64,000 bases of DNA from Peptococcaceae bacterium (GTDB lineage Bacteria > Bacillota > Desulfitobacteriia > Desulfitobacteriales > Syntrophobotulaceae): positions 1 to 64,000 of the forward strand of contig WRII01000007.1 in assembly GCA_009782825.1 (NCBI GenBank), given 5' to 3'. The notes below the pieces were generated by a model. The model did no database searches, was not told where the DNA came from, and worked only from the letters and a program-made list of their open reading frames with translations. The stretch's first letter is position 1, and the number at the start of each line of letters is the position of its first letter. The position numbers and the translations under genes are program-made. This document shows positions 12,622 to 32,955 of this stretch, in pieces.

Positions 12622-13677
12622 ATGGCACAGTTTCCGCAGGTCAGACCGCGGCGTCTGCGGCAAAACAAGGAAATCCGCAATCTTATCAGGGAGACGCGCA
12701 TTCATTTGGATCGTCTTGTATATCCTATGTTTGTTATTCCGGGGAAGGATCTGACGGAAGAAATTTCGGCAATGCCAGGAGTTTTCCGGTACTCGGTGGA
12801 TCGCCTTGTGGAAGAAGTATCCTACCTTGTTGAGCTGGGACTGAAGTCTCTGCTCCTATTCGGGTCTGCGCGCGAAAAAAGCTGGAATGGACATGAGGCT
12901 TGGGCTGAGGACAGTGTTGTTGCGGAGGCTGTTCGCGCCTTAAAAGAAAATTTTCCCAATATCTATCTTATAACTGATGTGTGCCTGTGTGCGTATACTG
13001 ACCATGGACACTGCGGCCTCACGGCTGAGGATGCAGATGCGCTTGGGAAGACAGGTGTTTCTCCTAAGCAGGCAGCTTCGGCTAAAGGCGCTGAAGGATA
13101 TCGGCTGCAGGGAGATACGATCCTCAATGATGAGACGCTGGATCTTTTGGCTAAAACCGCTGTGGCCCATGCCCGGGCCGGGGCGGATATGGTGGCGCCA
13201 TCTGACATGATGGACGGCCGTGTGGCGGCGATCCGCCAAGCCTTGGATGAACAGGGGTTTACTCATATCCCGGTGATGAGTTACGCTATAAAATATGCGT
13301 CGGCTTTCTATGGTCCTTTCAGAGAGGCGGCGGACTCCGCGCCCAGCTTTGGGGATCGCAGCAGTTATCAGATGGATCCCGCGAACCGCGAGGAGGCGTT
13401 GCGAGAAGCAGCCCTTGATATAGAAGAAGGCGCCGACATTCTCATGGTTAAACCGGCGCTGGCTTATTTGGATATTATTCGTGAAGTCAAGAACACATAT
13501 GGGTATCCTCTGGCGGCTTACAACGTCAGTGGCGAATATGCGATGGTGAAAGCGGCTGCGGCACGAGGGTGGATTGATGAGCGCCGTGTGGTTGAGGAGA
13601 GTATCACTTCTATGCTGAGAGCTGGGGCTGATATAGTCATAACGTATTTTGCCAAAGACCTGGCTCGGTATAAGTGA
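12622..13677 (+). CDS. hemB: Porphobilinogen synthase (delta-aminolevulinate dehydratase)
   Basis: The 351-residue enzyme condenses two 5-aminolevulinate molecules to porphobilinogen. The Schiff-base lysines are Lys224 in SYAIKYASAFYGPF and Lys277 in ILMVKPA. The cysteine-bearing loop CLCAYTDHGHCG suggests a zinc-dependent active site. The N-terminal arm RPRRLRQNKEIRNLIRET is typical. GGAGGGTGAATT precedes the ATG. It opens the haem gene block and is followed, after 82 bases, by the sensor-kinase-like gene. Confidence 0.95.
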   Translation: MAQFPQVRPRRLRQNKEIRNLIRETRIHLDRLVYPMFVIPGKDLTEEISAMPGVFRYSVDRLVEEVSYLVELGLKSLLLFGSAREKSWNGHEAWAEDSVVAEAVRALKENFPNIYLITDVCLCAYTDHGHCGLTAEDADALGKTGVSPKQAASAKGAEGYRLQGDTILNDETLDLLAKTAVAHARAGADMVAPSDMMDGRVAAIRQALDEQGFTHIPVMSYAIKYASAFYGPFREAADSAPSFGDRSSYQMDPANREEALREAALDIEEGADILMVKPALAYLDIIREVKNTYGYPLAAYNVSGEYAMVKAAAARGWIDERRVVEESITSMLRAGADIVITYFAKDLARYK

Positions 13678-13759
13678 GTTGCAAGGGCTGTCCCGGCAAT
13701 CGAACGTGTTGCTGAAGGATCCGGCTCTTTTAAAAGTACCTTGAGAAGGAGGAAGTGAC

Positions 13760-15430
13760 TTGGGAAAGCTGGGATTAAGATTTCGCTTGCTTGTCAGTGT
13801 TATGGTGATTGTCATTGTTATGGCGGCAGTGAATATTGTGATCAATTGGCTGCGTTACGAGGAACAGGCGGAAAACCAAATGAGGGAAAAGGCTAAAACG
13901 GTTACTGAGCAGCTTATTTCAACGCGCAAGTTTATGGCGGAGAAGCAGTTTGCGATCAATAATGATACCAACACAGGGAGTTTCCAATTTAAGCACTTGA
14001 ATCCGGCGGCTGTTGGCAAAGGACTCGGGGATATTTTCAAGGATAGAACAGGATATGTGCTTAAACAAACGAGACTCAAGCCGCGTGCCCCGGCAAACGC
14101 GCCGGATCAGTATGAAATTGATGAAATGGAAAAAATGATTGCTGAACCAACACTCGCGGAAACCTTCCACCGTGACACGTCGGACGGAGTACAGATGTTC
14201 CGTTACATGTATCCTCTTTATTACGAAACGTCATGCCTGGATTGCCATGGTGAACCGGCGGGATCGCTGGATATCTCGGGGTATCCTAAAGAAGGAAGCA
14301 AAGAAGGGGACTTTGCCGGCGCTATCAGTGTTATGTTTCCCACCCAAACTGTGGATGCTGATGTTCAGGGAAATCTTCTCACCCAAGGACTCATTTGGCT
14401 GATTATTATACTTGTTACTTTTCTCGTTATGTTTTTCATGATGGGCAGAATTGTTGTCAGACCTTTGCGGGCCCTGACCGCGAATGTGGACAAACTGGGC
14501 GGCAGGTCCTGGGAAGACAGCCGGATTGACGTTTCAAAGACCTTTGCTGAAATGCGCAGTTTAGGGGTGGCCTTTAATACCATGTCGGAAAACCTCAGAC
14601 GCTCTTATACCACTCTGGAGGATACTGTGGAAGAGCGCACGCATATGTTGCGGGAGGCCAATGAACAACTGAAGCAGAAAGGCACGGAACTGCAGCGCAT
14701 TAACTCGCTCCTCAGCGATTCTGACCGTAAAAAATCAGGGATGATAGCTGCCCTGAGCGGCGAATTACGTCAGCCCTTGAGCGCGATTATAGCCTTTACG
14801 CAAAACGTTATGGAAAATTCATATTCCCACCAGGATCAAATCCGATATCTTGATGATATTAGAGGAAATGCTCAGATGTTGGATGATCAGATCAGCGACC
14901 TGATGGCGATGTCGCAGATTGAGGCTGGACTTATGAGCCTTGATTATACAGAATTCAAGGTTGAAGATGTCTTCAAGGATCTCAGAAAAATAGTGAACCC
15001 AATCGTTGAGAGAAAGGGCCTGAAACTGAGCGTCGATATAGATTCCGCGACGTCTTCCCTGGTTGCTGATGAGAAAAAGGTTGTGCATATTTTGCGCAAC
15101 TTGCTCAGCAACGCGGTTAAGTATACTCCGGAAGGCGGGTGGATCCGTGTTAAGGTTGAGCCGGCATCCCGGGAAGACGGGCAAGATATGATCTTAATTC
15201 AAGTGAGTGACAGCGGCATTGGGATTAAGCCGGAAGACCTGTCCAGTCTTTTCACTCAGATGTGGCAGGGTGAGCAAGGAAGCCAAGGCGGCCAGGATAA
15301 TCACGGATTGGGTTTGGCAATTGTAAAAATCCTGATTGAACTCCATGGGGGAACAATCGATGTGAAGAGTATCTGGCAGAAGGGCACACTCTTCTCTATC
15401 AGGATCCCCGGCGGATTGGAACAATTTTGA
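13760..15430 (+). CDS. Haem-binding (DUF3365/Tll0287-type) sensor-kinase-like protein lacking the phospho-acceptor His
   Basis: The 556-residue protein has a first transmembrane helix (about 8-28) and an extracytoplasmic Tll0287/DUF3365-like domain with a c-type haem motif CLDCH (159-163). A second helix (about 212-235) is followed by a HAMP linker, a coiled coil and a histidine-kinase core. ATP-binding boxes look intact: N box with Asn447/Asn451, G1 DSGIGI from Asp484, and G2 GLGLAIVK from Gly516. The H box reads ALSGELRQPLSAI: Gly334 stands where the phosphorylated His should be. It starts with TTG at 13760 after AAGGAGGA. No response regulator is adjacent. Position among haem genes suggests a haem- or redox-sensing role, but this is inference; it may act as a non-phosphorylating sensor. 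Confidence 0.82.
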   Translation: MGKLGLRFRLLVSVMVIVIVMAAVNIVINWLRYEEQAENQMREKAKTVTEQLISTRKFMAEKQFAINNDTNTGSFQFKHLNPAAVGKGLGDIFKDRTGYVLKQTRLKPRAPANAPDQYEIDEMEKMIAEPTLAETFHRDTSDGVQMFRYMYPLYYETSCLDCHGEPAGSLDISGYPKEGSKEGDFAGAISVMFPTQTVDADVQGNLLTQGLIWLIIILVTFLVMFFMMGRIVVRPLRALTANVDKLGGRSWEDSRIDVSKTFAEMRSLGVAFNTMSENLRRSYTTLEDTVEERTHMLREANEQLKQKGTELQRINSLLSDSDRKKSGMIAALSGELRQPLSAIIAFTQNVMENSYSHQDQIRYLDDIRGNAQMLDDQISDLMAMSQIEAGLMSLDYTEFKVEDVFKDLRKIVNPIVERKGLKLSVDIDSATSSLVADEKKVVHILRNLLSNAVKYTPEGGWIRVKVEPASREDGQDMILIQVSDSGIGIKPEDLSSLFTQMWQGEQGSQGGQDNHGLGLAIVKILIELHGGTIDVKSIWQKGTLFSIRIPGGLEQF

Positions 15431-15514
15431 GTTTAACGGAATTTTGGGGGAAGGATAATAATTGTGGGTATCACTTGAAGGATCGGGTTGAACGCTATCA
15501 ACTGGGAGGATAAT

Positions 15515-16174
15515 ATGAACACTTACCCCGTTGCGCTTAAGCTCGCAGGTCGGCTTTGCCTCGTGGTTGGCGGGGGGAAAGTCGGCGAAAGGAAAGTCGC
15601 TTCGCTGCTTGCCAGTGGTGCTGCCGTGCGTCTGGTCAGCCCTGCGATTACAAAGCGGCTGATGGGATGGGCACGGCAAGGACCGATAGAGTGGAGGCAA
15701 AGGGCTTTTCAGGAAGAAGATTTAGAAAATGTGATGCTGGCGATTGCGGCTACGGATGACTATGAAGTTAACTGGGAAATTTCCCGGCTGTGCGATGAGC
15801 GTCACATCTTGGTCAATGTTGTGGATATTCCTGAGCTCTGCAGTTTCTATGTTCCGGCAATATTGCGGCGCGGTCTCTTGTCTATCATGGTATCTACAGC
15901 CGGCGCCAGCCCGGCTCTGGCCAGAAGGATTCGCGATATGCTGGGAGAGGTGTTTCCTCCCGTCTACTCTAAGTATTTGGAGCTGTTGGCCGGATGGCGG
16001 CGGCGGGCTTTTGCCGATATTCCGGATGCGGCCCGCCGGGAGGCTTTCTTGAAGCACATGGTCGATGATGTTACAATGCAGTTGATGCAAGATCAGAAAT
16101 ATGATCTCCTAAAGGAGCGATTGGAAGATGTTTATCGCGGTTATGGGAGTCAACCACCGCGGCGCCCCCGTTAA
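15515..16174 (+). CDS. Precorrin-2 dehydrogenase / sirohydrochlorin ferrochelatase
   Basis: The 219-residue protein matches the CysG N-terminal/Met8p family. It oxidises precorrin-2 with NAD+ to sirohydrochlorin and, in many members, inserts iron to make sirohaem. The NAD-binding loop GGGKVGERK lies at 19-27 and the conserved STAGASPALARRIRDML follows at about 130. The ATG at 15515 was preferred over TTG 15488 because GGGAGGA is placed directly before it. No separate CbiX/SirB ferrochelatase is present in the window, so the chelatase step is tentatively assigned here. The 3' end overlaps hemA by 47 bases. Confidence 0.88.
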   Translation: MNTYPVALKLAGRLCLVVGGGKVGERKVASLLASGAAVRLVSPAITKRLMGWARQGPIEWRQRAFQEEDLENVMLAIAATDDYEVNWEISRLCDERHILVNVVDIPELCSFYVPAILRRGLLSIMVSTAGASPALARRIRDMLGEVFPPVYSKYLELLAGWRRRAFADIPDAARREAFLKHMVDDVTMQLMQDQKYDLLKERLEDVYRGYGSQPPRRPR

Positions 16175-17537
16175 TATTCGGGAAAGAATGGCTTTTTCGG
16201 AAAGCCGTATTAAGGATGCGTTTGCTGAGCTTCTGGCGTATCCGGGAGTGTCGGGATGCTGCATTGTTTCCACGTGCAATAGAACGGAAATATATATTGC
16301 GGCAACACAGTGGGAAATGGGGCGCGAAGCTCTCTGGGCTTTTTGGGCGGATCACTCGGGGCTGGATGTGACTGAAATCAGCAGATATACTTTTTGCCAT
16401 ACGCTGGAGAAGGCGGTCAGTCATCTTTTTCGTGTGACGTCGGGGCTGGATTCGATGGTGTTGGGGGAAACGGAAATCTTGGGCCAGGTTAAGCGCGCGT
16501 ATAGGATGGCTCATGAAGCGGGAGCGACAAACGCGCCGCTCAATACCCTTTTCCAACAGGCGTTAAGCATAGGGAAGCGCGCCAGGGCGGAGACGGGAAT
16601 TGATCGCAATCCTGTTTCGATTCCTTATATTGCGGTTGAATTAATTAAACAGGAATTGGGATCGTTGACGGGCCGCTCGGTTCTTGTGATTGGCGCCGGG
16701 AAAATGAGCGAAATGGCTCTTGTGCATTTAAAGGCCAATGGGATTAGCGGGATTGTTGTGTCTAACCGCTCTTATGCCAGAGCTGTTGAGATGGCCCAGG
16801 CTTTGGGGGGGCAGGCTATTAAATTTGATGGGATTATGGATGCGCTGGCGGAAGCGGATATTGTGATTTCCGGAACGGCGGCGCAGCATAGTGTGTTGTC
16901 GGCGGAGACGGTGGCTCGGGCTATGCTCCGGAGGCCGGAGAGACCGCTGCTGTTGGTGGATATCGCTGTTCCTCGTGATATAGAGCCTGAGGTACGCCGG
17001 ATTTCGGGGGTGACGCTGTTTGATGTGGATGACCTGCAAAATGTGGTGGACAGATGTTGGCTGGAAAGGCAGCAGGCGGCCTGTATTGGGGAAAAAATTG
17101 TTGAGAAAGAGTGCGGGCTTTTTATGGAGAGGCTGGCCATGAGTACGGCGAACCCGACGATGAAGGCGCTGCAGGGCTTGGGTGAGGGAATTAAGGATCA
17201 GGAACTCAAAAGGGCGTTATCTAAGCTGGGCAATCTTTCGGACAAAGAAAGAACGGTGGTGGAGACGCTGGCCTCTTCTATTGCCCATAAAATTATACGG
17301 CAGCCTCTGTTGATGGTGAAGCAGATGGCGTTATCTGCTGACGGGCATTGTTACACACAGATGACGAGAAAGCTCTTTGGTTTGGAGGAGCTGACTGAGG
17401 ACTGCACGAGAACCACTATACACCGCCTTGAGAAAGGTATAGCAGGAGTCGCAAATGAAAAAGAGCTTTGTGATCGGGAGCCGGAAGAGTCCATTGGCTC
17501 TGTGGCAAACAAACTGGGTTATCGAGCGCTTGTGTGA
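16128..17537 (+). CDS. hemA: Glutamyl-tRNA reductase
   Basis: The 469-residue enzyme reduces glutamyl-tRNA to glutamate-1-semialdehyde with NADPH, the committed step of C5 tetrapyrrole synthesis. The N-terminal MFIAVMGVNHRGAPVNIRE and catalytic Cys50 in STCNRTE are diagnostic. The NADP fold (GRSVLVIGAGKMSE) and C-terminal helical domain follow. The start lies 47 bases inside the preceding gene, and the 3' end extends 83 bases into hemC, so translation of the three genes may be coupled. The C-terminal tail (about 35 residues after HRLEKG) is encoded mainly in the hemC overlap and is longer than usual. Confidence 0.94.
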   Translation: MFIAVMGVNHRGAPVNIRERMAFSESRIKDAFAELLAYPGVSGCCIVSTCNRTEIYIAATQWEMGREALWAFWADHSGLDVTEISRYTFCHTLEKAVSHLFRVTSGLDSMVLGETEILGQVKRAYRMAHEAGATNAPLNTLFQQALSIGKRARAETGIDRNPVSIPYIAVELIKQELGSLTGRSVLVIGAGKMSEMALVHLKANGISGIVVSNRSYARAVEMAQALGGQAIKFDGIMDALAEADIVISGTAAQHSVLSAETVARAMLRRPERPLLLVDIAVPRDIEPEVRRISGVTLFDVDDLQNVVDRCWLERQQAACIGEKIVEKECGLFMERLAMSTANPTMKALQGLGEGIKDQELKRALSKLGNLSDKERTVVETLASSIAHKIIRQPLLMVKQMALSADGHCYTQMTRKLFGLEELTEDCTRTTIHRLEKGIAGVANEKELCDREPEESIGSVANKLGYRALV

Positions 17538-18393
17538 AATCTATCCTCAGTATGAGTTCAAGATCCGTACGTTTGATACCCAGGGTGATCAGGTTTTAGA
17601 TGTGGCTTTGTCTAAAATAGGGGACAAAGGGCTTTTTACCAGGGAGCTGGAACAGGCTCTTCTGGAGGAAGAGATTGATTGTGCGGTACACAGCCTGAAG
17701 GATATGCCCAGCGTGATGCCGGAGGGTCTATATTTGGGTGCGATCGGCAAGCGGGAACACCCTGGAGATGTTCTGGTGAGCCGGGGGGTTGCTTTTCGTG
17801 ACTTGCCTCAGGGGGCCCGGATAGGAACGTCTGCTTTGCGCCGGTCGGCCCAGCTTTTATGTGCCCGGCCGGATCTGAAGGTTTTTCCTCTGAGGGGGAA
17901 TGTTCAGACGCGCTTGCGCAAGTTGGACCAGGAGGGGTATGATGGGATTGTTTTGGCGGCGGCGGGAGTGATCCGGCTGAATTTGCAGCATCATATTACG
18001 GAATTCCTGCCCACGGAGATGTGTTTGCCGGCGGTAGGACAAGGGGCGATTGCTGTCCAGTGCCGAGAGGCGGATACTTCTGTCCTGTGTGTTTTGGAAG
18101 GGATTGATGATGAACCTACACGGGTGGCCACGACAGCGGAACGGTCTTTGATGCAAGAGCTGGGCGGGGGGTGTCAGGTTCCCTTGGCGGCGTTGGCTGA
18201 GTGGCGAGAGGGGGTTCTCTCGATGGAGGCGCTGGTGGCGAGTCTTGAGGGAACACGTGTTTTGCGCGCGGGACGCACCCTTGCTCAGCAGTCGGGGTGT
18301 GATATTCGGGCGGCCCATGCATTGGGGGTTCGGGTGGCTCAGGATTTGCGCGGACAAGGGGCGGAAGAGATCTTGGCAGATCTGCGGCCGTGA
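17455..18393 (+). CDS. hemC: Hydroxymethylbilane synthase (porphobilinogen deaminase)
   Basis: The 312-residue enzyme polymerises four porphobilinogens into hydroxymethylbilane. It starts MKKSFVIGSRKSPLALWQ, has the active-site region HSLKDMPSVMPEGL with the catalytic Asp, the arginine-rich RIGTSALRRSAQLL segment, and cofactor-attachment Cys240 in GGGCQVPLAA. The ATG lies inside the end of hemA in a different frame. It is followed after 33 bases by cobA-hemD. Confidence 0.95.
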   Translation: MKKSFVIGSRKSPLALWQTNWVIERLCEIYPQYEFKIRTFDTQGDQVLDVALSKIGDKGLFTRELEQALLEEEIDCAVHSLKDMPSVMPEGLYLGAIGKREHPGDVLVSRGVAFRDLPQGARIGTSALRRSAQLLCARPDLKVFPLRGNVQTRLRKLDQEGYDGIVLAAAGVIRLNLQHHITEFLPTEMCLPAVGQGAIAVQCREADTSVLCVLEGIDDEPTRVATTAERSLMQELGGGCQVPLAALAEWREGVLSMEALVASLEGTRVLRAGRTLAQQSGCDIRAAHALGVRVAQDLRGQGAEEILADLRP

Positions 18394-18426
18394 AGGCCTT
18401 GAATTTGATGAGATTCAGGAGGGACT

Positions 18427-19956
18427 ATGAAAAAAGGAATGGTTTATTTTGTGGGGGCGGGGCCTGGCGATCCGGGCCTCATGACTGTTAAGGGGCTTTC
18501 GTGTATACAGAAGGCGGATGTGATTGTCTATGATCGTCTGGCGTCGTCCAAATTGCTGGCTCAGGCGCCTCGCCGGGCGGAGTTGATTTATGTGGGGAAG
18601 TCTCCGGAAAAACATGCTCTGGTGCAGGAGAAAATCAATCTTTTGCTGGTGGAGAAGGCTAAGGAAGGCAAGTGTGTGGTTCGCCTGAAGGGGGGGGATC
18701 CTTTCCTGTTTGGCCGGGGAGGCGAGGAAGCGGAATGTTTGTGTGAACATGCGATTCTCTTTGAGGTTGTGCCTGGGGTGACGTCGGCCCTGGCTGTTCC
18801 GGCTTATGCGGGGATTCCTGTGACTCATCGTAATTATACGTCGGCTGTCTGTATTGTGACGGGCAACGAGGATCCTATGAAGGAAGATTCTGATTTGGAT
18901 TGGAGCAAGATTGCGACATCAGCGGGAACGTTGGTTTTTCTTATGGGCATGGCCAACTTGGGGGCGATTTGTCAGCGCTTGATGGAGAATGGGCGGGCGC
19001 CGAAGATGCCGGTGGCGCTGATCCGCTGGGGCACACGTCCGGAACAACGGACGTTGATTGGAACTTTGGCGACTATAGAGACTTATGCCCGGGAGACTCA
19101 TTTTACGAATCCGGCTGTCATTGTGGTCGGAGATGTGGTTAATCTCAGGGAAAAACTGGCTTGGTTTGAAAGGAGGCCTCTTTTTGGCAAGAGGGTTCTG
19201 GTGACTCGCGCCCGGGAGCAGGCCAGCCAGATGTCTCAGGCGATTGAGTATTTGGGGGGCGAGGCTGTGGAGTTTCCGACTATCTGTGTGGCTCCGCCCT
19301 TGAAGGAAGATGTGGCTAAGCTTGATACGGCTCTGGCAGAGGTTTCGGGATATCAATGGATTGTTTTTACCAGTGTCAATGGCGTCGTGGCCTTTTTTGA
19401 CCGTCTGGCGGCTCTGGAGATGGATGTGCGTGACTTGAAGGGGCCGCGGCTGTGCGCTATTGGGCCCAAGACGGCGGATGAGCTGCGCGGAAAAGGGCTG
19501 CGAGTGGATTTTCTGCCTGAACTCTACCGGGCGGAGGCTATTGTGGAGGGGCTTAAGGGTGAGATTCAGGAGGGCGATCGGATCTTGCTGCCTCGTGCGG
19601 ATATTGCCCGCAAGGTTCTGCCGGAAACGCTGACGATGTTGGGGGCTCAGGTCAATGAGATTGCTGCCTACCGGACGGTGCAGGCTGATGACGAAGGGGC
19701 GGGAGAGCGCTTGTGTCAGGAATTGTGTGAGGGCAGGATTCATATTGTGACGTTCACCAGCTCGTCCACGGTGACGAATTTCCTCAACCTGGTGGGGGCT
19801 GAGTCTATTCCGTCCTGGCGCAGTCAGGTGAGGGTGGCCAGCATCGGGCCGATTACGTCGGAGACGGCGGCAAAGAGGGGGTTGACTGTTGATATTGAGG
19901 CGGAGGAGTATACAATAGAGGGTCTGGTTAAGTCGCTGTGCGAGAGTGTACAATAA
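18427..19956 (+). CDS. cobA-hemD: Fused uroporphyrinogen-III methyltransferase / uroporphyrinogen-III synthase
   Basis: The 509-residue fusion makes uroporphyrinogen III (HemD part) and methylates it at C2 and C7 to precorrin-2 (CobA/SUMT part). Residues 1-245 are a SAM-dependent methyltransferase (VGAGPGDPGLMTVKG, RLKGGDPFLFGRGGEE, VPGVTSALAVPAYAGIP). Residues about 250-509 are a HemD domain (GKRVLVTRAREQASQMS, VFTSVNGV, TFTSSSTVTNF). Such fusions are common in clostridia. It channels all tetrapyrrole flux here toward precorrin-2, consistent with the sirohaem-dependent haem route encoded around it. An ATG follows GGAGGGACT. Confidence 0.94.
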   Translation: MKKGMVYFVGAGPGDPGLMTVKGLSCIQKADVIVYDRLASSKLLAQAPRRAELIYVGKSPEKHALVQEKINLLLVEKAKEGKCVVRLKGGDPFLFGRGGEEAECLCEHAILFEVVPGVTSALAVPAYAGIPVTHRNYTSAVCIVTGNEDPMKEDSDLDWSKIATSAGTLVFLMGMANLGAICQRLMENGRAPKMPVALIRWGTRPEQRTLIGTLATIETYARETHFTNPAVIVVGDVVNLREKLAWFERRPLFGKRVLVTRAREQASQMSQAIEYLGGEAVEFPTICVAPPLKEDVAKLDTALAEVSGYQWIVFTSVNGVVAFFDRLAALEMDVRDLKGPRLCAIGPKTADELRGKGLRVDFLPELYRAEAIVEGLKGEIQEGDRILLPRADIARKVLPETLTMLGAQVNEIAAYRTVQADDEGAGERLCQELCEGRIHIVTFTSSSTVTNFLNLVGAESIPSWRSQVRVASIGPITSETAAKRGLTVDIEAEEYTIEGLVKSLCESVQ

Positions 19957-20002
19957 ATAAAAAAAAAGAAACGCAGGAAGAAGAATAGGAGGGGTTCGTT
20001 TT

Positions 20003-21175
20003 ATGATCAGCATAAGCAAATTGCTGTGCGATACGGAAAACTATGGGGATAACTTGCGGTATGCGCCGGGGAGTCATGGACAGCGCAATGGGGCTGTTTC
20101 CGGGCATGGTCCGGTGGTGGTGTGGAATTGCACACGCACGTGCAACCTTAAGTGTATCCATTGCTATTCGGCGTCGGATCACGAGAAGTATGATCAGATG
20201 AGTACGGATGAGGGGAAGAGATTTATTGATGATTTGGCGGACTTTAAGGTGCCGGTGATCCTCTTTTCCGGCGGAGAACCGTTGGTGCGTCCGGATTGTC
20301 TGGAGCTGATCGCGTATGCTCGCGAACGGGGACTGCGGACGACGCTGTCGACGAATGGAACGCTGATTACGGCGGAGAAGGCCCAGGTGCTGAAGGATCT
20401 GAATGTGGGGTATGTGGGGATTAGTTTGGATGGGCTGGGAGAGGTGAATGACCGTTTTCGCGGCCAGGAGGGGGCGTTTGACAAGGCGCTGCAGGGGATT
20501 CGCAATTGTTTGGCTGTGGATCAGAAGGTGGGCCTGAGGTTTACTATTAATAGGCATAATTATAAGTATTTGAATGATATTTTTGATTTGGTGGAGCAGG
20601 AGAATATTCCGCGGGTGTGTTTTTATCATCTGGTGTATTCGGGCAGGGGCAGCGCTATGATTGATGAGGATATCAGCAAGGAGGAGAGCCGTCAGGGTAT
20701 GGAGCTGATTATGGAGAGGACGCTGGATTTTCATCAGCGGGGAGTGACTAAAGAGATTCTGACGGTGGACAACCATGCGGATGCGATCTATGTTTACTTG
20801 AAGCTTAAGGAGAGGGAGCCGGAGCGGGCGGAATATGTCCGGGAGCTGCTGCTCAGAAATGGGGGAAACCGTTCGGGGATTGCGATTGGGCAGGTGGATT
20901 GGCTGGGCAATGTTCATCCGGATCAGTTTACGGGAGGGCATTGTTTAGGGAATGTCCGGGAAAGAAATTTTGGCGAAATTTGGTCGGACACGAGCCATCC
21001 TATTATGGCGGGAATGAAGGATCGCAAGCCTTTACTCAAGGGCCGCTGTGCGGCGTGTGCGCATTTGGCGATGTGCAACGGGAACTTCCGGACTCGGGCG
21101 GAGGCTGTGTATGGTGATTTTTGGGCGGAGGATCCGGCGTGTTATTTGACGGATGAGGAGATAGGAGGCAGCTGA
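20003..21175 (+). CDS. ahbC: Radical SAM protein AhbC/NirJ1 (12,18-didecarboxysirohaem deacetylase)
   Basis: The 390-residue radical SAM enzyme is predicted to remove two acetate side chains from didecarboxysirohaem to give Fe-coproporphyrin III. The [4Fe-4S]-SAM motif is Cys47-x3-Cys51-x2-Cys54 in TCNLKCIHC, with an additional Cys43. The FSGGEP motif follows. A C-terminal cysteine cluster (CAACAHLAMCNGNFR and a later Cys) is the SPASM/twitch-like auxiliary site. The N terminus MISISKLLCDTENYGDNLRY matches NirJ1-type proteins. The ahbD gene follows after 3 bases, supporting the assignment. Confidence 0.9.
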   Translation: MISISKLLCDTENYGDNLRYAPGSHGQRNGAVSGHGPVVVWNCTRTCNLKCIHCYSASDHEKYDQMSTDEGKRFIDDLADFKVPVILFSGGEPLVRPDCLELIAYARERGLRTTLSTNGTLITAEKAQVLKDLNVGYVGISLDGLGEVNDRFRGQEGAFDKALQGIRNCLAVDQKVGLRFTINRHNYKYLNDIFDLVEQENIPRVCFYHLVYSGRGSAMIDEDISKEESRQGMELIMERTLDFHQRGVTKEILTVDNHADAIYVYLKLKEREPERAEYVRELLLRNGGNRSGIAIGQVDWLGNVHPDQFTGGHCLGNVRERNFGEIWSDTSHPIMAGMKDRKPLLKGRCAACAHLAMCNGNFRTRAEAVYGDFWAEDPACYLTDEEIGGS

Positions 21176-21178
21176 TTA

Positions 21179-22171
21179 ATGATCATTTCTTGGAATACGA
21201 CGAATGCGTGTAATTTGTTTTGTGCCCACTGTTATCGGGACGCGGGGGCGAAACAGGATGAGGAGCTGAATACGGAGGAAGGCAAGCGTTTGCTGGATCA
21301 GATTGCTGAAGCGGGCTTCAAGATTATGATTTTTAGCGGCGGCGAGCCTTTTATGCGTTCTGATATTGTGGAGTTGGTGGCTCATGCCCGTTCGCGGGGG
21401 CTGCGGCCGGTTTTTGGCACGAATGGGACTTTGATAACTCCGGAGATTGCCAGGGATCTGAAGGCGGCTGGAACTATGGGTGTGGGGATCAGTCTCGACA
21501 GCTTGGATCTTGAAAAGCATGATCACTTGCGGGGTCAGGCTGGGAGCTGGGAAGGCGCTGTGCGGGGGATGAGGGCCTGCCGGGAAGCGGGGCTGGCATT
21601 TCAGATTCATACCACGGTTATGGAGTGGAATGACCCTGAGGTGGAGGCGATTACGGATTTTGCGGTGGCGCAGGGGGCGGTGGCTCATCATATTTTTTTC
21701 CTGGTTCCTACGGGCCGGGCGGTGGATATTGAGCAGGAGTCTCTGCGGGCGGAACAGTATGAAAATATTCTGGAGCGGATTATGCGGAAGCAGCAGACGG
21801 TGGATATTGAGTTGAAGCCGACTTGCGCGCCTCAGTTCATGCGCATTGCTAAACAGATGGGTATGGAGCTGCGTTATGAGCGGGGATGTCTGGCGGGAAC
21901 GTCTTATTGCATTATTGGGCCTAAGGGGGATGTGCAGCCTTGTGCGTATTTGAATATGTCTCTGGGCAATGTTAAGGAGAAGTCTTTCGTGGAGATTTGG
22001 CGGAACAGCCCGGTTTTTCAGGAGCTGCGTACCTTGGAGTATCAGGGGGGCTGCGGAACGTGTGAGTTTAAATACAAGTGCGGCGGCTGCCGGGCGCGGG
22101 CGTATTTCTATCATGGCAGCTATATGGCGGAAGAGCCGTGGTGTTTGTATCATGGACGGAGGGGATATTGA
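21179..22171 (+). CDS. ahbD: Radical SAM protein AhbD/NirJ2 (haem synthase)
   Basis: The 330-residue enzyme is predicted to oxidatively decarboxylate the two propionates of Fe-coproporphyrin III to vinyl groups, giving haem b. The radical SAM motif is Cys11-x3-Cys15-x2-Cys18 close to the N terminus. FSGGEP follows, and a C-terminal auxiliary Fe-S region reads CGTCEFKYKCGGCRARAYF. The short N terminus before the motif is typical of NirJ2/AhbD compared with AhbC. It is tightly coupled to ahbC (3-base spacing, TTAATG start). Confidence 0.9.
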   Translation: MIISWNTTNACNLFCAHCYRDAGAKQDEELNTEEGKRLLDQIAEAGFKIMIFSGGEPFMRSDIVELVAHARSRGLRPVFGTNGTLITPEIARDLKAAGTMGVGISLDSLDLEKHDHLRGQAGSWEGAVRGMRACREAGLAFQIHTTVMEWNDPEVEAITDFAVAQGAVAHHIFFLVPTGRAVDIEQESLRAEQYENILERIMRKQQTVDIELKPTCAPQFMRIAKQMGMELRYERGCLAGTSYCIIGPKGDVQPCAYLNMSLGNVKEKSFVEIWRNSPVFQELRTLEYQGGCGTCEFKYKCGGCRARAYFYHGSYMAEEPWCLYHGRRGY

Positions 22172-22379
22172 GATCCGGCTCGCCGCGCAGCAGCACGCTC
22201 AGTGGGGGGCCAGGAGAGTGAGCTGCTTCATGCTTTTTGTGATAGTTAATCCTGATTCTAATCAGAAGACATTTGTATGAAAGCATAAAAATCCGGTATC
22301 TGTCCGCGAATATTTGGGCCGGAAGAGAATTTTTCAAAGGGTTTTTTGGGAATGTTGAAGAATATACACTTATTGTGAT

Positions 22380-22407
22380 TGTTCTTGGCAGGGGGATATG
22401 TTATAAT
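22380..22407 (+). promoter_or_regulatory. Promoter candidate for the ccm-nrf operon
   Basis: TTGTTC at 22380-22385 and TATAAT at 22402-22407 are separated by 16 bases, about 50 bases before ccmA. The 285-base gap from ahbD to ccmA is otherwise without an ORF that has a ribosome-binding site. The -10 is a perfect consensus; the -35 is moderate. Confidence 0.5.
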
Positions 22408-22456
22408 CTTTGTGCGGTAACTGCGTTGATTTGTGCGATAATACCGAATAAGGGGC

Positions 22457-23107
22457 GTGATAGAGTCGGGTATGCTGAAGAAGCCTGTCATGAAGATCGA
22501 TGTCGAGAATGTCTCCAAGAAGTTCGGCTCGCGCTCTCTGTTTTCCGGTATTTCATGCCATCTCGGTGCTGGGGACTGCTTGATTATTACGGGGCGTAAT
22601 GGTTCGGGAAAGTCGACTTTGGTGAAGATTTTGGCCCGGCTTTTGCGTCCGACTTCCGGGACTGTTGCGTTTATGTATGAGGGGCAGGAGTGCTGCGACT
22701 GGGAAGACTGTCTTTCCCATATCGGCTTTGTTTCGCCGGAAATTATGTTCTATGATAATTTAACAGGCCGGGAGAATTTGGAGTTTATGGCGCGTGCGCG
22801 GGGGGTTCGCCTTCTGCCTGCCCAGTTCGAGGAGACGCTGGCCCGGGTGGGGCTGGATTCCCGGGGATCTCAGTTTGTTAAGACGTACTCAACGGGGATG
22901 AAGCAGCGCTTAAAGTTTGCGGCGATGCTGGCTTTGGAGCCAATCGTATGGTTTGTGGATGAGGGCCTGTCTAATCTGGACGCTGATGGCCGGGGTTTGG
23001 TTCTTGATTTGGTGAAGCAGTCCCTTGAGAAGGGATGTGTGCTGATTATGGCCACAAATGATGTGCTGGAGGCTGAGTATGCAACACAAACCATCGCGCT
23101 TTCCTAG
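22457..23107 (+). CDS. ccmA: Haem exporter ABC transporter ATP-binding protein CcmA
   Basis: The protein of up to 216 residues is the ATPase of the CcmAB(C) transporter, which releases holo-CcmE during cytochrome c maturation. Walker A is GRNGSGKST at about 46-54, the signature region reads YSTGMKQRLKFA, and Walker B ends IVWFVDEG. Start choice is uncertain: GTG 22457, ATG 22472 and ATG 22490 are all in frame, and none has an ideal ribosome-binding site. Its 3' end overlaps ccmB. It is the first gene of the cytochrome maturation-nitrite reductase block. Confidence 0.86.
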   Translation: MIESGMLKKPVMKIDVENVSKKFGSRSLFSGISCHLGAGDCLIITGRNGSGKSTLVKILARLLRPTSGTVAFMYEGQECCDWEDCLSHIGFVSPEIMFYDNLTGRENLEFMARARGVRLLPAQFEETLARVGLDSRGSQFVKTYSTGMKQRLKFAAMLALEPIVWFVDEGLSNLDADGRGLVLDLVKQSLEKGCVLIMATNDVLEAEYATQTIALS

Positions 23108-23777
23108 TTTTTTTATGAGTGTGGGAGCTGTGCTGCGTAAGGACGCGCTCAGTGAGCTGCGCAGCAAATACGCGTTTAGCACATTGGCGGTGTTTGCGTT
23201 GACCTGTCTGGCTGGGATCAGTATGAGTATAGGCGGTGGTGAGCTGACTCAGCTGAATCCGCAGGTGCAGTCGGTGCTTTTGTGGATTGTCTTGTTTTTC
23301 TCCGCTATGGCCGGATTGGGCCGGGTTTTTGTTCAGGAACAGGATGCGGGGACGCTGCTGACTTTGAAGGTTTCTGCGCCTCCTCAGGCGGTTTATTTTG
23401 GTAAAGTGATTTTTAATGTTTTTTTGCTGGTGAGCTTGAGTGTCCTGGTCTTAATTCTTTTTATAGTTTTTTTTGATGTTTCTGTGTCGGATTGGCTTTC
23501 CCTAATTGGTGTGCTTTGGCTGGGCAGTATAGGGTTGTCTATCATTGCGACAATGACGGCGGCGATGGCGGCCCAGGCCCAGGGACGGGCGTCTTTGTTT
23601 ACCATTATTACATTTCCGTTGATTTTACCGGAGTTCTTGAGTGCGATTGAAGGGACTCGCGCCGTTCTGGCAGGTGAAGCGGTTGAGCTTACGCAGTTTC
23701 TGTTTTTGGGAGGCTATGGGGTGGTGGCGCTGGTTGCGGGCTCTATTTTGTTTGATTATCTTTGGATAGAGGGATAG
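23079..23777 (+). CDS. ccmB: Haem exporter permease CcmB
   Basis: The 232-residue integral membrane protein has about six hydrophobic segments and CcmB landmarks: an early LRKDALSELRSKYAF, then GRVFVQEQDAGTLLTL. It partners CcmA. ATG 23079 was chosen over an in-frame ATG at 23058 because CTGGAGG lies immediately before it, inside the end of ccmA (29-base overlap). It ends 18 bases before ccmC. Confidence 0.88.
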   Translation: MQHKPSRFPSFFMSVGAVLRKDALSELRSKYAFSTLAVFALTCLAGISMSIGGGELTQLNPQVQSVLLWIVLFFSAMAGLGRVFVQEQDAGTLLTLKVSAPPQAVYFGKVIFNVFLLVSLSVLVLILFIVFFDVSVSDWLSLIGVLWLGSIGLSIIATMTAAMAAQAQGRASLFTIITFPLILPEFLSAIEGTRAVLAGEAVELTQFLFLGGYGVVALVAGSILFDYLWIEG

Positions 23778-23795
23778 AGAAAGGGGGCCAAAGAG

Positions 23796-24521
23796 ATGTT
23801 GGGGAGGCTGTCTAAGGGAGATAACTTATTTGGAATTATTACTGGTGTATGGCTTGTGGCCACGGCTGTGGCTGTTTTTGCCTTACCGCCTGTTGAACCT
23901 ATTGAGTATTTTGGGTATAGTGCACGTATTTTATTTTTCCATATTCCTATGGCCTGGATCGCTGTTGTGGCTTTTCTCATGGGGGCTTGGTGGGCGGTTC
24001 AATACCTGAGGAAGAGAGATTTGGCTCAGTTTCATCATGGTTCATTGTCCAATAAGGTGGGTTTGGTTTTTACCTTGCTGGCGACCGTCAGCGGAGCGGT
24101 GTATGGCAAATTGACCTGGGGAACTTTCTGGAATTGGGATGTCAGACAAACCACAATTTTTATTCTGCTGCTTATTTATGCCGCATATATTGTTTTGGGG
24201 TATTCGATTGAGGATGAGGAGAAGAGAGCGAGGATTTCCGCTGTTTATTCTCTGTTTGCTTTTGTTACGGTGCCTTTTCTGTTTTTTGTGATTCCACGGC
24301 TGGGAATTACCACGATACATCCTACATCATTTAACATGACTTTTAATATGGTTCTGGTTCTTGTTGCGGCTTTGCTGGGAATTACGGCTTTATTCATCTG
24401 GATTGTCCGCTGTGGCGCGGCTTATAGACGGAATAGGGTTGTCGAACCGACTGCGCAAGAGGAGCCGGCTTCTTTTGCGCAAACGAGTAAGGATTTACAG
24501 AATGGAGAGGATCAAACATGA
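23796..24521 (+). CDS. ccmC: Haem-handling protein CcmC
   Basis: The 241-residue membrane protein belongs to the haem-handling CcsA/CcmC family. It attaches haem to CcmE. The tryptophan-rich WWD motif reads WGTFWNWDVRQTT, flanked by conserved histidines in FFHIPMAW and in the later TIHPTSF. About six transmembrane helices are visible. AAAGGGGGCC precedes the ATG. It overlaps the ccmE start by 4 bases (ATGA). Confidence 0.92.
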   Translation: MLGRLSKGDNLFGIITGVWLVATAVAVFALPPVEPIEYFGYSARILFFHIPMAWIAVVAFLMGAWWAVQYLRKRDLAQFHHGSLSNKVGLVFTLLATVSGAVYGKLTWGTFWNWDVRQTTIFILLLIYAAYIVLGYSIEDEEKRARISAVYSLFAFVTVPFLFFVIPRLGITTIHPTSFNMTFNMVLVLVAALLGITALFIWIVRCGAAYRRNRVVEPTAQEEPASFAQTSKDLQNGEDQT

Positions 24522-24898
24522 CAAAGGGCCGGATGAAAAGACGTCATATGATATATCTGGGCATCGTTGTGGTTTTTATTGTCATTTCCGTTGTGGCTTT
24601 TGCCGGTTCAGTGACGCCCTATGTGACTTTTGATGAGGCTAAGGCTAGGAACACGTCGGTGCAGGTTCGCGGAGACTTGGTTGGCGAGGTTAAAAACTTA
24701 GAGGACGGGCAAGGGATTGCTTTTGATTTAAAGGATGATAACGGAACGGTGGTTCAGGTCGTGTATAAAGGAATCAAACAGGACAACATGGATCATGCTG
24801 ATGGGTTGGTGGTGCAGGGCAAAATTGACGGCGATGTTTTTTGCGCAAGTAAGATTCTCGTCAAATGTCCTTCAAAATATGAGAGCAAAGGAGGCTGA
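24518..24898 (+). CDS. ccmE: Haem chaperone CcmE, CxxxY variant
   Basis: The 126-residue protein has one N-terminal membrane anchor (MIYLGIVVVFIVISVVAF) and an outside OB-fold. CcmE carries haem covalently on the way to apocytochromes. In most bacteria the attachment motif is HxxxY; here the matching C-terminal position reads CPSKY (Cys117-Tyr121), the cysteine variant known from archaea and some sulfate reducers. The 5' end overlaps ccmC and ccmF follows after 8 bases. GGAGAGGATC is the ribosome-binding site. Confidence 0.9.
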   Translation: MTKGRMKRRHMIYLGIVVVFIVISVVAFAGSVTPYVTFDEAKARNTSVQVRGDLVGEVKNLEDGQGIAFDLKDDNGTVVQVVYKGIKQDNMDHADGLVVQGKIDGDVFCASKILVKCPSKYESKGG

Positions 24899-24906
24899 AA
24901 AGCTCA

Positions 24907-27900
24907 ATGATTGGGATGATGGCATTGTTTTGTGCGGGGGTATTTACGCTTATAGCGATTGTGCTCAATGCACTGGATCTCAAGGAGTTGCCTGTTGGGA
25001 ATGGGAGTAAATCAGGTCTCCCTTTGCAGGATGTAAAGCAGCGTACCCATATTTTTTATAATTTGTCTGTGGCGAGTCTTGTTGCGGCTTCGTTTTATTT
25101 ATGGTTTATTATTCTGAATGATCAGTTTGCCTATAAATATGTTTCCAATTACTCTGCTACGGATTTGTCAGTGATCTATAAGATTACCGCGTTCTGGGCA
25201 GGTGCGGAAGGATCGTTCTTGCTCTGGGTGCTTTTGCATGGGTTGATCGGGCTGTGGCTGTATCGGCGGAAGGATGTTTTGCCGGGAGTCAAGCTGGTGT
25301 ACAGCGCTGTGCAGATGTGCCTGCTGGTGGTTCTGACAATGAAAAGTCCTTTTATGCAAATTACGGGGCATGCGATGGACCTTACGGAAGGGGGGGGGCT
25401 CAATCCGCTCCTGCAAAATCCATGGATGGTTTCCCATCCGCCTCTTTTGTTTATGGGATATGCGGGGTTAGCGGTTCCTTTTGCCCTGGCTGTGGGGTCG
25501 CTGCGGGGCGGCGATTATAAGTCATGGATCAAGAAGGCGTTGCCTTTTTCGCTGTTTTCCTGGGCCTTTTTGGGCGTCGGGATCTTTCTTGGCGGGTATT
25601 GGGCCTATGAGACTTTGGGCTGGGGAGGGTATTGGGCTTGGGATCCGGTGGAAAATGCGTCTCTCATTCCATGGTTGGTGTGCGGTGGGTTGATCCACTT
25701 TTTGATCCTTTCTCTGAAAAGGCCTCCGAATGTCAAAGCGGCGGGTTTGGCGGCGGTATTCAGTTATGGGCTGGTGTTGTTGGGAACTTGGCTCACGCGC
25801 AGCGGCTTCTTTAAAGATTCTTCACAACACTCGTTTGCGGGCGAAGAGGCTAGGGTTATCATTATATTGGGTGTGATTGTTTTCTTGGTCGTGGCTGTCC
25901 CCTTGATCCTGTTTATAGTGAAATGGCCGAAGCTGCCGGTGGCGGAGGAGGAGGAGGAACCTCTCAAAACCAGGGGGTCTATGACCTGGTACGGAGCTAT
26001 TGCCTTGTGCGTTTTTGGAGGGGTCGTGCTGTTCGGCATCTTGGCTTCGATAGTGACGGGGATCGTCAAAGCCCCAACGGAAATCGATATGTCGTATTAT
26101 AATCCGACGGGACTGCTGGTGATGTTGGCTGTTCTGGCGCTCATGGTTCTGGCGACTTTTTTTGCCTGGGGGAAAAGCCCGAAAGGAACAGGCCAGAAAA
26201 AAGGGGCATCAAAGCAGGCGGGTGAAAATATAGGTGAAAATATAGAAGAAAAAGCTGAGGTCTTGGACCCGGTCAGGAAACCTGGCGGAATTAACGGATT
26301 CACACTCGGCGTGGTGGTGTTAAGCGCACTGCTGTTGATGGGGATTGGAGTGCTTATCGGCATTCGGCCTGACGCCGGTTTTATGAATATCTTGATGTTT
26401 GCGTTTATCCTCTTGGGATTGGCGGGAGCGGGCGCGGTCTGCGCCGCCAGTGTTCTTGCGTTCTTCAGGAAGGACGTGCGCAAGGGGATGAGCCGGGCCG
26501 CGTTATTTACCCATATCGGGTTGGCGGTTCTCACGGCGGGGATTCTGTTTTCATCCGCAGGAACACACAAGGATCTGCAGACACTTGAAGCTGGGGCGGA
26601 AAAGACGATTTTGGGCCGTCAAGTCACCTATATTGGTCTTGACGTAGGGGACTTCCGCCTTGACCGTGACGGGTATTTGATTGAACCGGGCACAGGGGAG
26701 GTCGTCCAGGGGTTTGCCAACAGCACTTTGCGGGGGACGGAGACAAAAGGGGTGAAACCAACTTGGAGCACGGATCCCGGCCCGGTCAACATGAGTCTTG
26801 GTATGCCGCATCCGGATCCTGCCTTGAAAGATTTCGTTCTTACCGGCTTTTCCGTCACTGGAAAAGGTGTGGTTATCGGAGTTTATAGGGACAGCGCTCA
26901 GTCTATTTCGGAACAGCTGTTCGTGGTGCCTTTGGAGGACTTTATCTTTAACAATGACGGCAACATGATTGAACCCTTCACAGGAGTGCTTGTCCCGGGG
27001 TTTGCCAACAGCTCTTTCCAGGGAACGGCTGCTGATGTCGTGGAGCCAGCCTGGAGTACGGATCCCGGTCCCATCACTCTTAGCCTGGGTATGCTGCATC
27101 CGGATCCTGCCAAGAGTGATTTTGCCCTTGCTGATTTCACTGTTGATGAGAAAGGTGTGGTTACCGGGATCTATGCGAACGGCCTCATGGAGATGATTAG
27201 GGAACAACTGTTTAGGGTGGCCATGAAGAATTACACCAATCCTGGTGGTTATGTCCAAAGATTTGTTGTAGACGGTGAAATTGTTGAAATCACAACAGGT
27301 ATGAGTGAAAAATTTGGAGATCTGCACAAGCCGGCTATTTTATGGTCGTTGGTGGAGGACTACTATATGGCTCCCGGCCATATAGAGAACCAAGAAAGTT
27401 CTGACCATGAGCTGGCCCAAGGAATTCCTGTGGAGATCAAGATTGATAAGGAGACGATCCGTGTCAGACTGAAAGAAATTAAAATGGAAAATCCGGATGC
27501 TGATGATGCTTCCGCGTATGCCTTGTTTGATGTTGTTTACAAGGAAGAGCTTCAGGAGGTTCGCCTGGAATGGATAAAAACCGACGCCGGATTCAACCCT
27601 GTGCCGGTAATTATGTTTGATAAATATGAGTTTAGGATGACGGAGATCAATAACGAACAATCGAAAGTTGTTCTGCGTGTCAAGAAGGAATATGAACTGC
27701 AGCAGGAAACGCCTATTACACTGGCAGTTGCGGACGAAAAACTTACAATAACGCTGAAGGAGTGCGGGGCGGGCAGCGAGGATTCTGCCGCTGCCAATAC
27801 GTCGTATTTCGCTGTGTTGGACGTGGCTCGGAACGGAGCAGTTCAGGAGAATGGAGAGATCCAAGAGAACGGAGAGATCCAAGAGAACGGAGAAGTCCAA

Positions 27901-28239
27901 GAGAACGGAGAGACCCAAGAGAACGGAGAAGTCCAAGAGGTTCGTATTGAGATGACGAGATCCGGTTCTAACGCGAATTGGGTTTCTGTCCCGGGGACGG
28001 TCTTTGATCAATATACTTTTGAGTTGACAGGAATCAGCGTGTCCCAGAATCGAATAGCGATAGCGATTCAAGATATGAATGAAGCTATCATTAATGATAG
28101 AGTGAACATGGAGGTTTCCACCAAGCCGCTCATGGTTCTTGTTTGGCTCGGCACGATCTTGATCAGTGCGGGTATAATCTGGGCGGCTCTCAAAAGATGG
28201 GGTCCTAGTCCTTTTCAGGATTTACGTAACAAAAAATAA
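24907..28239 (+). CDS. ccmF: Cytochrome c haem lyase subunit CcmF with large duplicated insertion
   Basis: The first ~560 residues are a recognisable CcmF: multiple membrane helices, HPPLLFMGYAG, and a WWD motif GWGGYWAWDPVENASL at about 233-256. CcmF ligates haem to apocytochromes. At 1110 residues it is far longer than the usual ~630-700. After residue ~579 come two tandem 96-residue modules (DF...DGYLIEPGTGEVVQGF and DF...DGNMIEPFTGVLVPGF), the second ending KNYTNPGG. Their pattern resembles flagellar hook/rod protein sequence. Then comes a beta-rich acidic region, a stretch of ENGEIQ hexapeptides (about 979-1012), and a final transmembrane helix (PLMVLVWLGTILISAGIIW). AAAGGAGG lies 13 bases before the ATG. 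Frame is continuous, so this is not a sequencing join visible from here. Confidence 0.9.
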   Translation: MIGMMALFCAGVFTLIAIVLNALDLKELPVGNGSKSGLPLQDVKQRTHIFYNLSVASLVAASFYLWFIILNDQFAYKYVSNYSATDLSVIYKITAFWAGAEGSFLLWVLLHGLIGLWLYRRKDVLPGVKLVYSAVQMCLLVVLTMKSPFMQITGHAMDLTEGGGLNPLLQNPWMVSHPPLLFMGYAGLAVPFALAVGSLRGGDYKSWIKKALPFSLFSWAFLGVGIFLGGYWAYETLGWGGYWAWDPVENASLIPWLVCGGLIHFLILSLKRPPNVKAAGLAAVFSYGLVLLGTWLTRSGFFKDSSQHSFAGEEARVIIILGVIVFLVVAVPLILFIVKWPKLPVAEEEEEPLKTRGSMTWYGAIALCVFGGVVLFGILASIVTGIVKAPTEIDMSYYNPTGLLVMLAVLALMVLATFFAWGKSPKGTGQKKGASKQAGENIGENIEEKAEVLDPVRKPGGINGFTLGVVVLSALLLMGIGVLIGIRPDAGFMNILMFAFILLGLAGAGAVCAASVLAFFRKDVRKGMSRAALFTHIGLAVLTAGILFSSAGTHKDLQTLEAGAEKTILGRQVTYIGLDVGDFRLDRDGYLIEPGTGEVVQGFANSTLRGTETKGVKPTWSTDPGPVNMSLGMPHPDPALKDFVLTGFSVTGKGVVIGVYRDSAQSISEQLFVVPLEDFIFNNDGNMIEPFTGVLVPGFANSSFQGTAADVVEPAWSTDPGPITLSLGMLHPDPAKSDFALADFTVDEKGVVTGIYANGLMEMIREQLFRVAMKNYTNPGGYVQRFVVDGEIVEITTGMSEKFGDLHKPAILWSLVEDYYMAPGHIENQESSDHELAQGIPVEIKIDKETIRVRLKEIKMENPDADDASAYALFDVVYKEELQEVRLEWIKTDAGFNPVPVIMFDKYEFRMTEINNEQSKVVLRVKKEYELQQETPITLAVADEKLTITLKECGAGSEDSAAANTSYFAVLDVARNGAVQENGEIQENGEIQENGEVQENGETQENGEVQEVRIEMTRSGSNANWVSVPGTVFDQYTFELTGISVSQNRIAIAIQDMNEAIINDRVNMEVSTKPLMVLVWLGTILISAGIIWAALKRWGPSPFQDLRNKK
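26650..27225 (+). repeat. 288-bp tandem duplication inside ccmF
   Basis: Two consecutive 288-bp units (26650-26937 and 26938-27225) encode 96-residue modules that align without gaps. Shared stretches include GFANS, WSTDPGP, SLGM.HPDPA, KGVV and EQLF. The codons have diverged, so the duplication is not very recent. Confidence 0.85.
27841..27940 (+). repeat. 18-bp in-frame tandem repeat in ccmF
   Basis: About five units of an 18-bp sequence encode the hexapeptide QENGEI or close variants (NGEV, NGET). It is nearly perfect at nucleotide level, implying recent expansion. Confidence 0.9.
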
Positions 28240-28257
28240 CAAAAAGGAGGCGATAAT

Positions 28258-28716
28258 GTGAAAGCCGGCAAGCAATCTTTCAAAATGGCAGCGATTGGGT
28301 TCGTTGTCGCGTTGGTTTTAGTGGGCGCTGGCGGGGCAGCTTACGCTTACATGGAATCACCCAGCTTTTGTGGCGGATGTCATGCCATGCAGGAACAATA
28401 TCATTCATGGAATGACTCCGCGCATCAAACTGTTGATTGCAGTGACTGCCATCTGCCCCACGATAACATTGCTAGCACTTTGTGGGCCAAGACTCAGACG
28501 GGTGTTGTAGATGTCTATCAGCAAGCGACGAGAGGGTATGATTTAGAAATCACAGTTACCGAGAAGGGCAAGGAATATTTACAGAAAAATTGTATACGTT
28601 GTCACGAGCCTGCGATCAAAGAAACCGGAATGGGCTTTGATAAGGATGGTGACGGCAGAGACTGTACGTCATGCCACCGGAACCTTGTTCATGGCGGCAA
28701 GACGATTTCACAATAG
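28258..28716 (+). CDS. nrfH: Cytochrome c nitrite reductase small subunit NrfH
   Basis: The 152-residue NapC/NirT-family quinol dehydrogenase passes electrons from menaquinol to NrfA. It has one N-terminal membrane anchor and four haem motifs: CGGCH (38-42), CSDCH (61-65), CIRCH (112-116) and CTSCH (136-140). The start is GTG 28258 after a strong AAAGGAGG; the apparent ATG two bases before is out of frame. It ends 14 bases before nrfA. Confidence 0.93.
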   Translation: MKAGKQSFKMAAIGFVVALVLVGAGGAAYAYMESPSFCGGCHAMQEQYHSWNDSAHQTVDCSDCHLPHDNIASTLWAKTQTGVVDVYQQATRGYDLEITVTEKGKEYLQKNCIRCHEPAIKETGMGFDKDGDGRDCTSCHRNLVHGGKTISQ

Positions 28717-28730
28717 GGGAGGGATCTGAT

Positions 28731-32761: not shown

Positions 32762-32955
32762 AACCGGAACCAAAGAGGAGACCCAAAGTTACAGCCCCTA
32801 AAAGGTATAATACAGAAGTTATGCCACAAATTATAGTCGGAATTTTTAAAAAAAGTAAGACTAAAGGGCTTTAATAATGTTTTAAAATGGAGTATAATGT
32901 AAAAAAGAGCATAGATATTCAATGTTGTATGTGGCAGCCTGTGAGGAGGAACCAG

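Follow-up and report, generated by a model that had tools for sequence, protein, structure and literature searches.

A sensor kinase with a c-type haem motif, without the phospho-acceptor histidine or an adjacent response regulator, beside hemB in a Peptococcaceae bacterium

Gene and Domain Organization of the Locus

The window analyzed in this work is a stretch of 64,000 nt (positions 1 to 64,000, forward strand, of contig WRII01000007.1, assembly GCA_009782825.1) from a Peptococcaceae bacterium of the family Syntrophobotulaceae. Between hemB and sirC there is a 556-aa ORF whose TTG start codon closely follows an AGGAGG ribosome-binding site, which agrees with the initial annotation of a kinase gene embedded between hemB and the sirohaem genes. 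Pfam assigns to the protein an sCache_heme (Tll0287/DUF3365)-HAMP-HisKA-HATPase architecture with every domain above cut-off: Tll0287-like, residues 35-194 (PF11845, 106.6 bits versus a curated cut-off of 24.1); HAMP, residues 228-281; HisKA, residues 325-390 (40.2 bits versus 26.9); and HATPase_c, residues 437-550. An AlphaFold model built from three sequences (pLDDT 53) was used for the order of secondary-structure elements alone. The features of the locus, all on the plus strand, are as follows.

12622-13677, +, hemB (porphobilinogen synthase), directly upstream of the kinase in 3/3 genomes (NF006762, 486 bits; synteny)
13760-15430, +, pseudo-histidine-kinase, sCache_heme-HAMP-DHp-CA, 556 aa (ORF and Pfam)
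13784-13849, +, first membrane helix, about residues 9-30 (hydrophobic stretch in the sequence; helix in the low-confidence model)
13862-14341, +, Tll0287-like/sCache_heme sensor domain, residues 35-194 (PF11845, 106.6 bits; match to structure 5B82, E 0.01)
14003-14005, +, Pro82, in a column with Cys in 16/54 relatives (likely the Cys haem ligand of Tll0287; alignment)
14234-14248, +, CLDCH c-type haem attachment motif, residues 159-163 (sequence; CxxCH in 54/54 relatives)
14378-14446, +, second membrane helix, about residues 207-229 (hydrophobic stretch in the sequence)
14441-14602, +, HAMP domain, residues 228-281 (PF00672, 31.2 bits)
14612-14725, +, linker, residues 285-322, unusually conserved among the three His-less proteins (identity comparison)
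14726-14935, +, DHp domain, residues 323-392 (PF00512)
14759-14761, +, GGC codon for Gly334, replacing the phospho-acceptor His (sequence, alignment)
14771-14773, +, Gln338, replacing the +4 Thr (phosphatase residue); Gln in 3/3 His-less proteins (alignment)
14936-15427, +, CA (HATPase_c) domain, conserved in the three His-less proteins (PF02518, 96.8 bits)
15095-15121, 15209-15223 and 15305-15313, +, N, G1 and G2 boxes within the CA domain, conserved in the three His-less proteins
15515-22171, +, tetrapyrrole genes sirC, hemA, hemC, cobA-hemD, nirJ1 and nirJ2, downstream of the kinase
22457-28239, +, cytochrome c maturation genes ccmA, ccmB, ccmC and a ccmF-like gene
28258-28716, +, nrfH, with four CxxCH motifs
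28671-30125, +, nrfA, start uncertain, with a CVTCK active-site motif (nrfH and nrfA together, 28258-30125)

Loss of the Phospho-Acceptor Histidine Is Shared Within the Genus

The H box of the window protein reads LSGELRQPL, with Gly334 (GGC) at the position of the phospho-acceptor His, exactly as first reported. We searched 544 genomes in nested groups and aligned 54 distinct full-length Bacillota sCache_heme kinases. His and the Thr at +4 are kept in 51 of them (HE[LMIVF][RKQ]TP), and the three exceptions all come from this genus: the window protein (SGELRQP) and those of the other two genomes of the genus examined, G001 (SGGLRQP) and G002 (SSGLRQP), to which the window protein is 57-58% identical. 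The acceptor column thus holds Gly, Gly, and Ser, and the +4 Thr is Gln in 3/3. The congeners (records WRHI01000011 and WRJI01000031, Peptococcaceae bacterium Nt197P3bin107/bin79) carry the sample code Nt197, which occurs in a survey of higher-termite gut genomes (PMC7024585).

The initial annotation had asked whether Gly is conserved in orthologues, and took a His kept in close relatives, or phosphorylation of another His, as evidence against its reading. Both congeners lack the acceptor His as well, and an alignment of the three proteins contains no alternative His common to their DHp domains. A local mutation or sequencing error was rejected, since the His loss agrees across three genomes; the loss is not local to the window. 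In the tree of kinases the three His-less proteins form a single clade (support 100/100) on a long stem and represent one evolutionary event, known from three draft genomes that are each 91-95% complete. A scan of named genomes returned only the two congeners as full-length relatives, and no viral copies of the kinase were found. No further His loss occurs in the alignment of 54 sCache_heme kinases, and every other H box that a motif search found in the window's genome (13 kinases) has its His, which argues that the loss is more than chance.

The Cognate Response Regulator Appears to Be Lost

When the 1.5-kb flanks of the 54 kinases were analyzed, a response regulator gene was found alongside 50 of the 51 His-bearing kinases versus 0 of the 3 His-less ones. 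The four kinases without an adjacent regulator are the three His-less proteins and L056, which was confirmed as a His-bearing kinase and a true orphan; since L056 keeps its His, losing the regulator need not by itself entail losing the His. At 40 of the 41 His-bearing loci examined more widely, the automatic count placed a same-strand regulator ORF directly after the kinase, and at the remaining one (L146) the overlap between regulator and kinase ORFs is larger than that count permitted. As a separate observation, the orphan His-bearing kinase (L056/L203; 9138-10817, minus strand) shares its contig with a regulator-linked paralogue, and the two could possibly form a mixed-dimer pair.

No receiver domain is encoded anywhere on the 71-kb contig that carries the window. 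We also considered that the cognate regulator had been relocated within the genome: in the three genomes of the genus no regulator belonging to the clade of the adjacent regulators was found elsewhere, and the 24 regulators there that most resemble a cognate one all fall outside that clade (84/88). The cognate regulator appears to have been lost in the genus, with some room for a missed gene in drafts that are 91-95% complete.

The Kinase Core Is Retained Under Selection

Between the two congeners the overall dN/dS is 0.067. It is lowest in linker plus DHp and in CA (0.025 each), higher in the sensor (0.10), and highest in TM2-HAMP (0.21); dS > 1, so that all values are approximate. Congener-congener identity is 91-95% in linker, DHp, and CA versus 80% in the sensor, and linker identity between the window protein and its congeners is 79%, compared with 45-74% in equally diverged His-bearing pairs. 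Near-invariant positions were defined from the 51 His-bearing relatives and scored as kept when present in the three His-less proteins, which retain 28/29 sensor, 7/7 linker, and 24/30 CA positions; the DHp domain has lost 5/18, including His334 and Thr338. A decaying pseudogene is rejected by the intact frames and the dN/dS values. Since sensor, linker, and CA positions are mostly kept while the DHp domain loses His and Thr, phosphotransfer has been selectively removed and the core retained, with no general decay.

The N, G1, and G2 boxes were originally described as intact. All three are there (RNLLSNAVKY, DSGIGI, and GLGL), but all three proteins depart from the family in the F box (F501 to M) and at the lid glycine (G514 to N/K). 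ATP binding by the CA domain is uncertain because of these two replacements.

Sensor Domain and Likely Signal

The CLDCH motif noted in the sensor half is present at residues 159-163, and C159-H163 aligned with the Tll0287 structure 5B82 (E 0.01); every one of the 54 relatives has CxxCH at this place. The column of the likely Cys haem ligand ('VCAPVG' in Tll0287, 'NCSTV' in relatives) contains Cys in 16/54 relatives and Pro in the three His-less proteins, Pro82 of the window protein being matched to the Tll0287 Cys ligand through a weak pairwise alignment. A 2026 preprint describes PF11845 as a Cache domain with covalent haem c, in which a HAMP-linked representative without the axial Cys binds NO tightly while a stand-alone, Cys-ligated type looks redox-like (PMC12889525). 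Pro at the likely ligand column matches the expectation for the NO-binding class of that work. NO is the signal that we would favour, with redox second; NO binding by the window protein is extrapolated from work on two proteins of a different phylum.

hemB, Cytochrome c, and nrf Neighbourhood

The window has the gene order hemB-kinase-sirC-hemA-hemC-cobA/hemD-nirJ1-nirJ2-ccm-nrf, and the congeners have hemB-kinase-ccm-nrf-sirC-hemA-hemC-cobA/hemD-nirJ1-nirJ2. The cluster is rearranged, with the ccmABC-ccmF-nrfHA block before sirC-hemA in the congeners (L038-L041) and after nirJ2 in the window (12622-30125); nrfH and nrfA belong to the same cluster as the kinase at all three His-less loci. hemB is the only neighbour directly adjacent to the kinase in both gene orders, and in the two congeners the end of hemB and the start of the kinase gene overlap by 8 nt. 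Promoter and terminator scans around hemB-kinase gave no excess over shuffles, and the hairpin between the two genes in the window is not significant (z -1.3).

Some further features of the region were observed. The cytochrome c maturation genes at 22457-28239 are of the Ccm type (ccmA, B, C, and ccmF-like). The ccmF-like protein (24907-28239) has 1110 aa in the window versus about 800-840 aa in the congeners; it carries a duplication (...GFANS...WSTDPGP...SLGM.HPDPA...) and a short run of QENGE repeats. A 1083-aa protein with many Sel1 repeats adjoins hemL (32887-36138).

Across Bacillota, regulator-linked sCache_heme kinases lie repeatedly near nrfH-nrfA (L123-L152, L042-L051). At 14 of the 41 His-bearing loci an nrfA homologue lies no more than about 8 kb away, the usual order being kinase-regulator-nrfH-nrfA on one strand. 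This linkage, of which we met no description in the literature searched, suggests an NO/nitrite-responsive two-component system for the ammonifying nitrite reductase. The proposal that the window protein is a haem feedback sensor is weakly supported, and not in the form in which it was put: the haem is a covalent cofactor, and published work on the family points to NO or redox. Given the ccmABC, ccmF-like, and nrfHA neighbours and the repeated nrfHA linkage of the family, a role in nitrite/NO metabolism or in cytochrome c supply accounts for the neighbourhood no less well than haem feedback does.

How the Protein May Signal

With no His, no Thr, and no regulator, the usual phosphotransfer chemistry is closed. 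The protein cannot itself carry out His-Asp transfer, which bears out the earlier view of a haem-c sensor pseudo-kinase that signals without classical phosphotransfer; signalling through another kinase, also suggested there, is plausible. We favour, with a probability of roughly 0.6, a functional orphan pseudo-histidine-kinase that has an NO- or redox-responsive c-haem and acts through protein contacts.

The protein would descend from a normal sCache_heme kinase whose gene adjoined that of an OmpR-type response regulator, a pair that many relatives have beside nrfHA. Before the species of the termite-gut genus diverged, the regulator gene would have been lost and the acceptor His and phosphatase Thr replaced, with the kinase gene staying coupled to hemB in the haem/cytochrome c/nitrite-reductase cluster. 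The outward-facing c-type haem may bind NO or shift its redox state, upon which the Cache-HAMP module would move the coiled linker and the DHp bundle. A further signalling protein, most probably another histidine kinase or a response regulator, would pick up this output through direct contact (compare DivL, RocA, and RetS), and the effect may be to adjust haem, cytochrome c, or Nrf supply. A second Tll0287-like protein was considered as dimer partner and rejected: each genome of the genus has one Tll0287-like protein. In our judgement, mixed-dimer control is the likeliest form of output, followed by trans-phosphorylation and then by direct contact with HemB.

His-less and ATPase-less mutants of HisKA kinases such as EnvZ and NtrB complement each other intermolecularly. 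With that precedent, the acceptor alone could have been lost here, with a CA domain that remains able to bind ATP and, within a mixed dimer, to phosphorylate a different kinase on its His; the N, G1, and G2 boxes kept in all three proteins and the strongly constrained CA domain (dN/dS 0.025) are in keeping with such a role. However, two residues close to the ATP lid, F501 and G514, differ in each of the three proteins, and the genome encodes no close kinase paralogue as partner for a mixed dimer (the best kinase-core matches are 25-38% identical), which leaves trans-phosphorylation an unlikely account.

We give still less credence to a relic whose kinase half has become vestigial and whose c-haem, used for NO scavenging or electron transfer, is the sole reason for its retention. 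The loss of phosphotransfer residues and regulator and the well-kept sensor (28/29 positions) would fit, but a relic predicts the opposite of the observed constraint, which is stronger in linker, DHp, and CA than in the sensor.

The kinase core might instead bind HemB or another early tetrapyrrole enzyme and set its activity or membrane location by the haem-c/NO state. The position of hemB as sole direct neighbour in both gene orders, the gene overlap in the congeners, and a 71-kb contig without a receiver domain to carry a transcriptional output are compatible with this proposal; simple co-expression, however, also predicts the adjacency, and we know of no precedent for a kinase core that binds HemB. 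A transmembrane c-haem NO/redox sensor whose pseudo-kinase core governs HemB or another enzyme of haem synthesis by contact, in place of the lost two-component phosphorelay, is improbable. Phosphotransfer through another residue is very improbable, as the acceptor column is Gly/Gly/Ser, the DHp domains share no conserved His, and there is no linked regulator, although the ATP-binding boxes are largely intact.

Comparison With Known Systems

The favoured reading, a pseudo-kinase with contact-based output, has parallels in several systems. The window protein resembles other sCache_heme kinases (PF11845; PMC12889525) in its CxxCH sensor, its TM-HAMP-DHp-CA layout, and a likely axial-ligand column without Cys as in the NO-binding representative; unlike this clade, the 51 other relatives have His and Thr, and 50 of them an adjacent regulator. 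DivL of Caulobacter, which has neither kinase nor phosphatase activity, is a natural precedent for output by contact: it also keeps a HisKA/HATPase fold without acceptor His for protein contacts, but has Tyr550 at the acceptor position, PAS domains, and a cell-cycle role, whereas the window clade has Gly/Ser and a c-haem Cache sensor in an unrelated lineage (PMC4211667). RocA of group A Streptococcus is likewise a membrane pseudokinase and works through another kinase, CovS; in contrast to the window protein it has a dispensable His, a degenerate CA domain, and no haem sensor (PMC7028121).

The ChrS pseudokinase of Corynebacterium glutamicum shares with the window protein a catalytically dead kinase in a haem-linked pathway, and it boosts cross-phosphorylation in haem signalling (PMC9491836). 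It is, however, a laboratory-evolved CA-domain frameshift in a haem-responsive kinase whose regulator is still present (PMC9491836), whereas in the window clade the loss is natural and old, lies in the DHp domain, and is accompanied by the absence of the regulator. Kinase-kinase contact as output mode is also found in RetS/GacS of Pseudomonas, where RetS influences GacS in three ways, including inhibition of autophosphorylation; the mechanisms of RetS include phosphotransfer and phosphatase activity, so RetS is not acceptor-less (PMC5992135). Our literature search found no description of a degenerate orphan kinase of this kind.

To our knowledge, natural His-less kinases are few and their origin is rarely visible. 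Here the origin can be read: in the relatives, kinase and regulator occur together, often with nrfHA, whereas in a single genus the regulator and the phospho-His have disappeared from a kinase whose core is still under strong selection. With this clade one can ask, in a concrete case, what function is left to a kinase core once phosphotransfer is gone.
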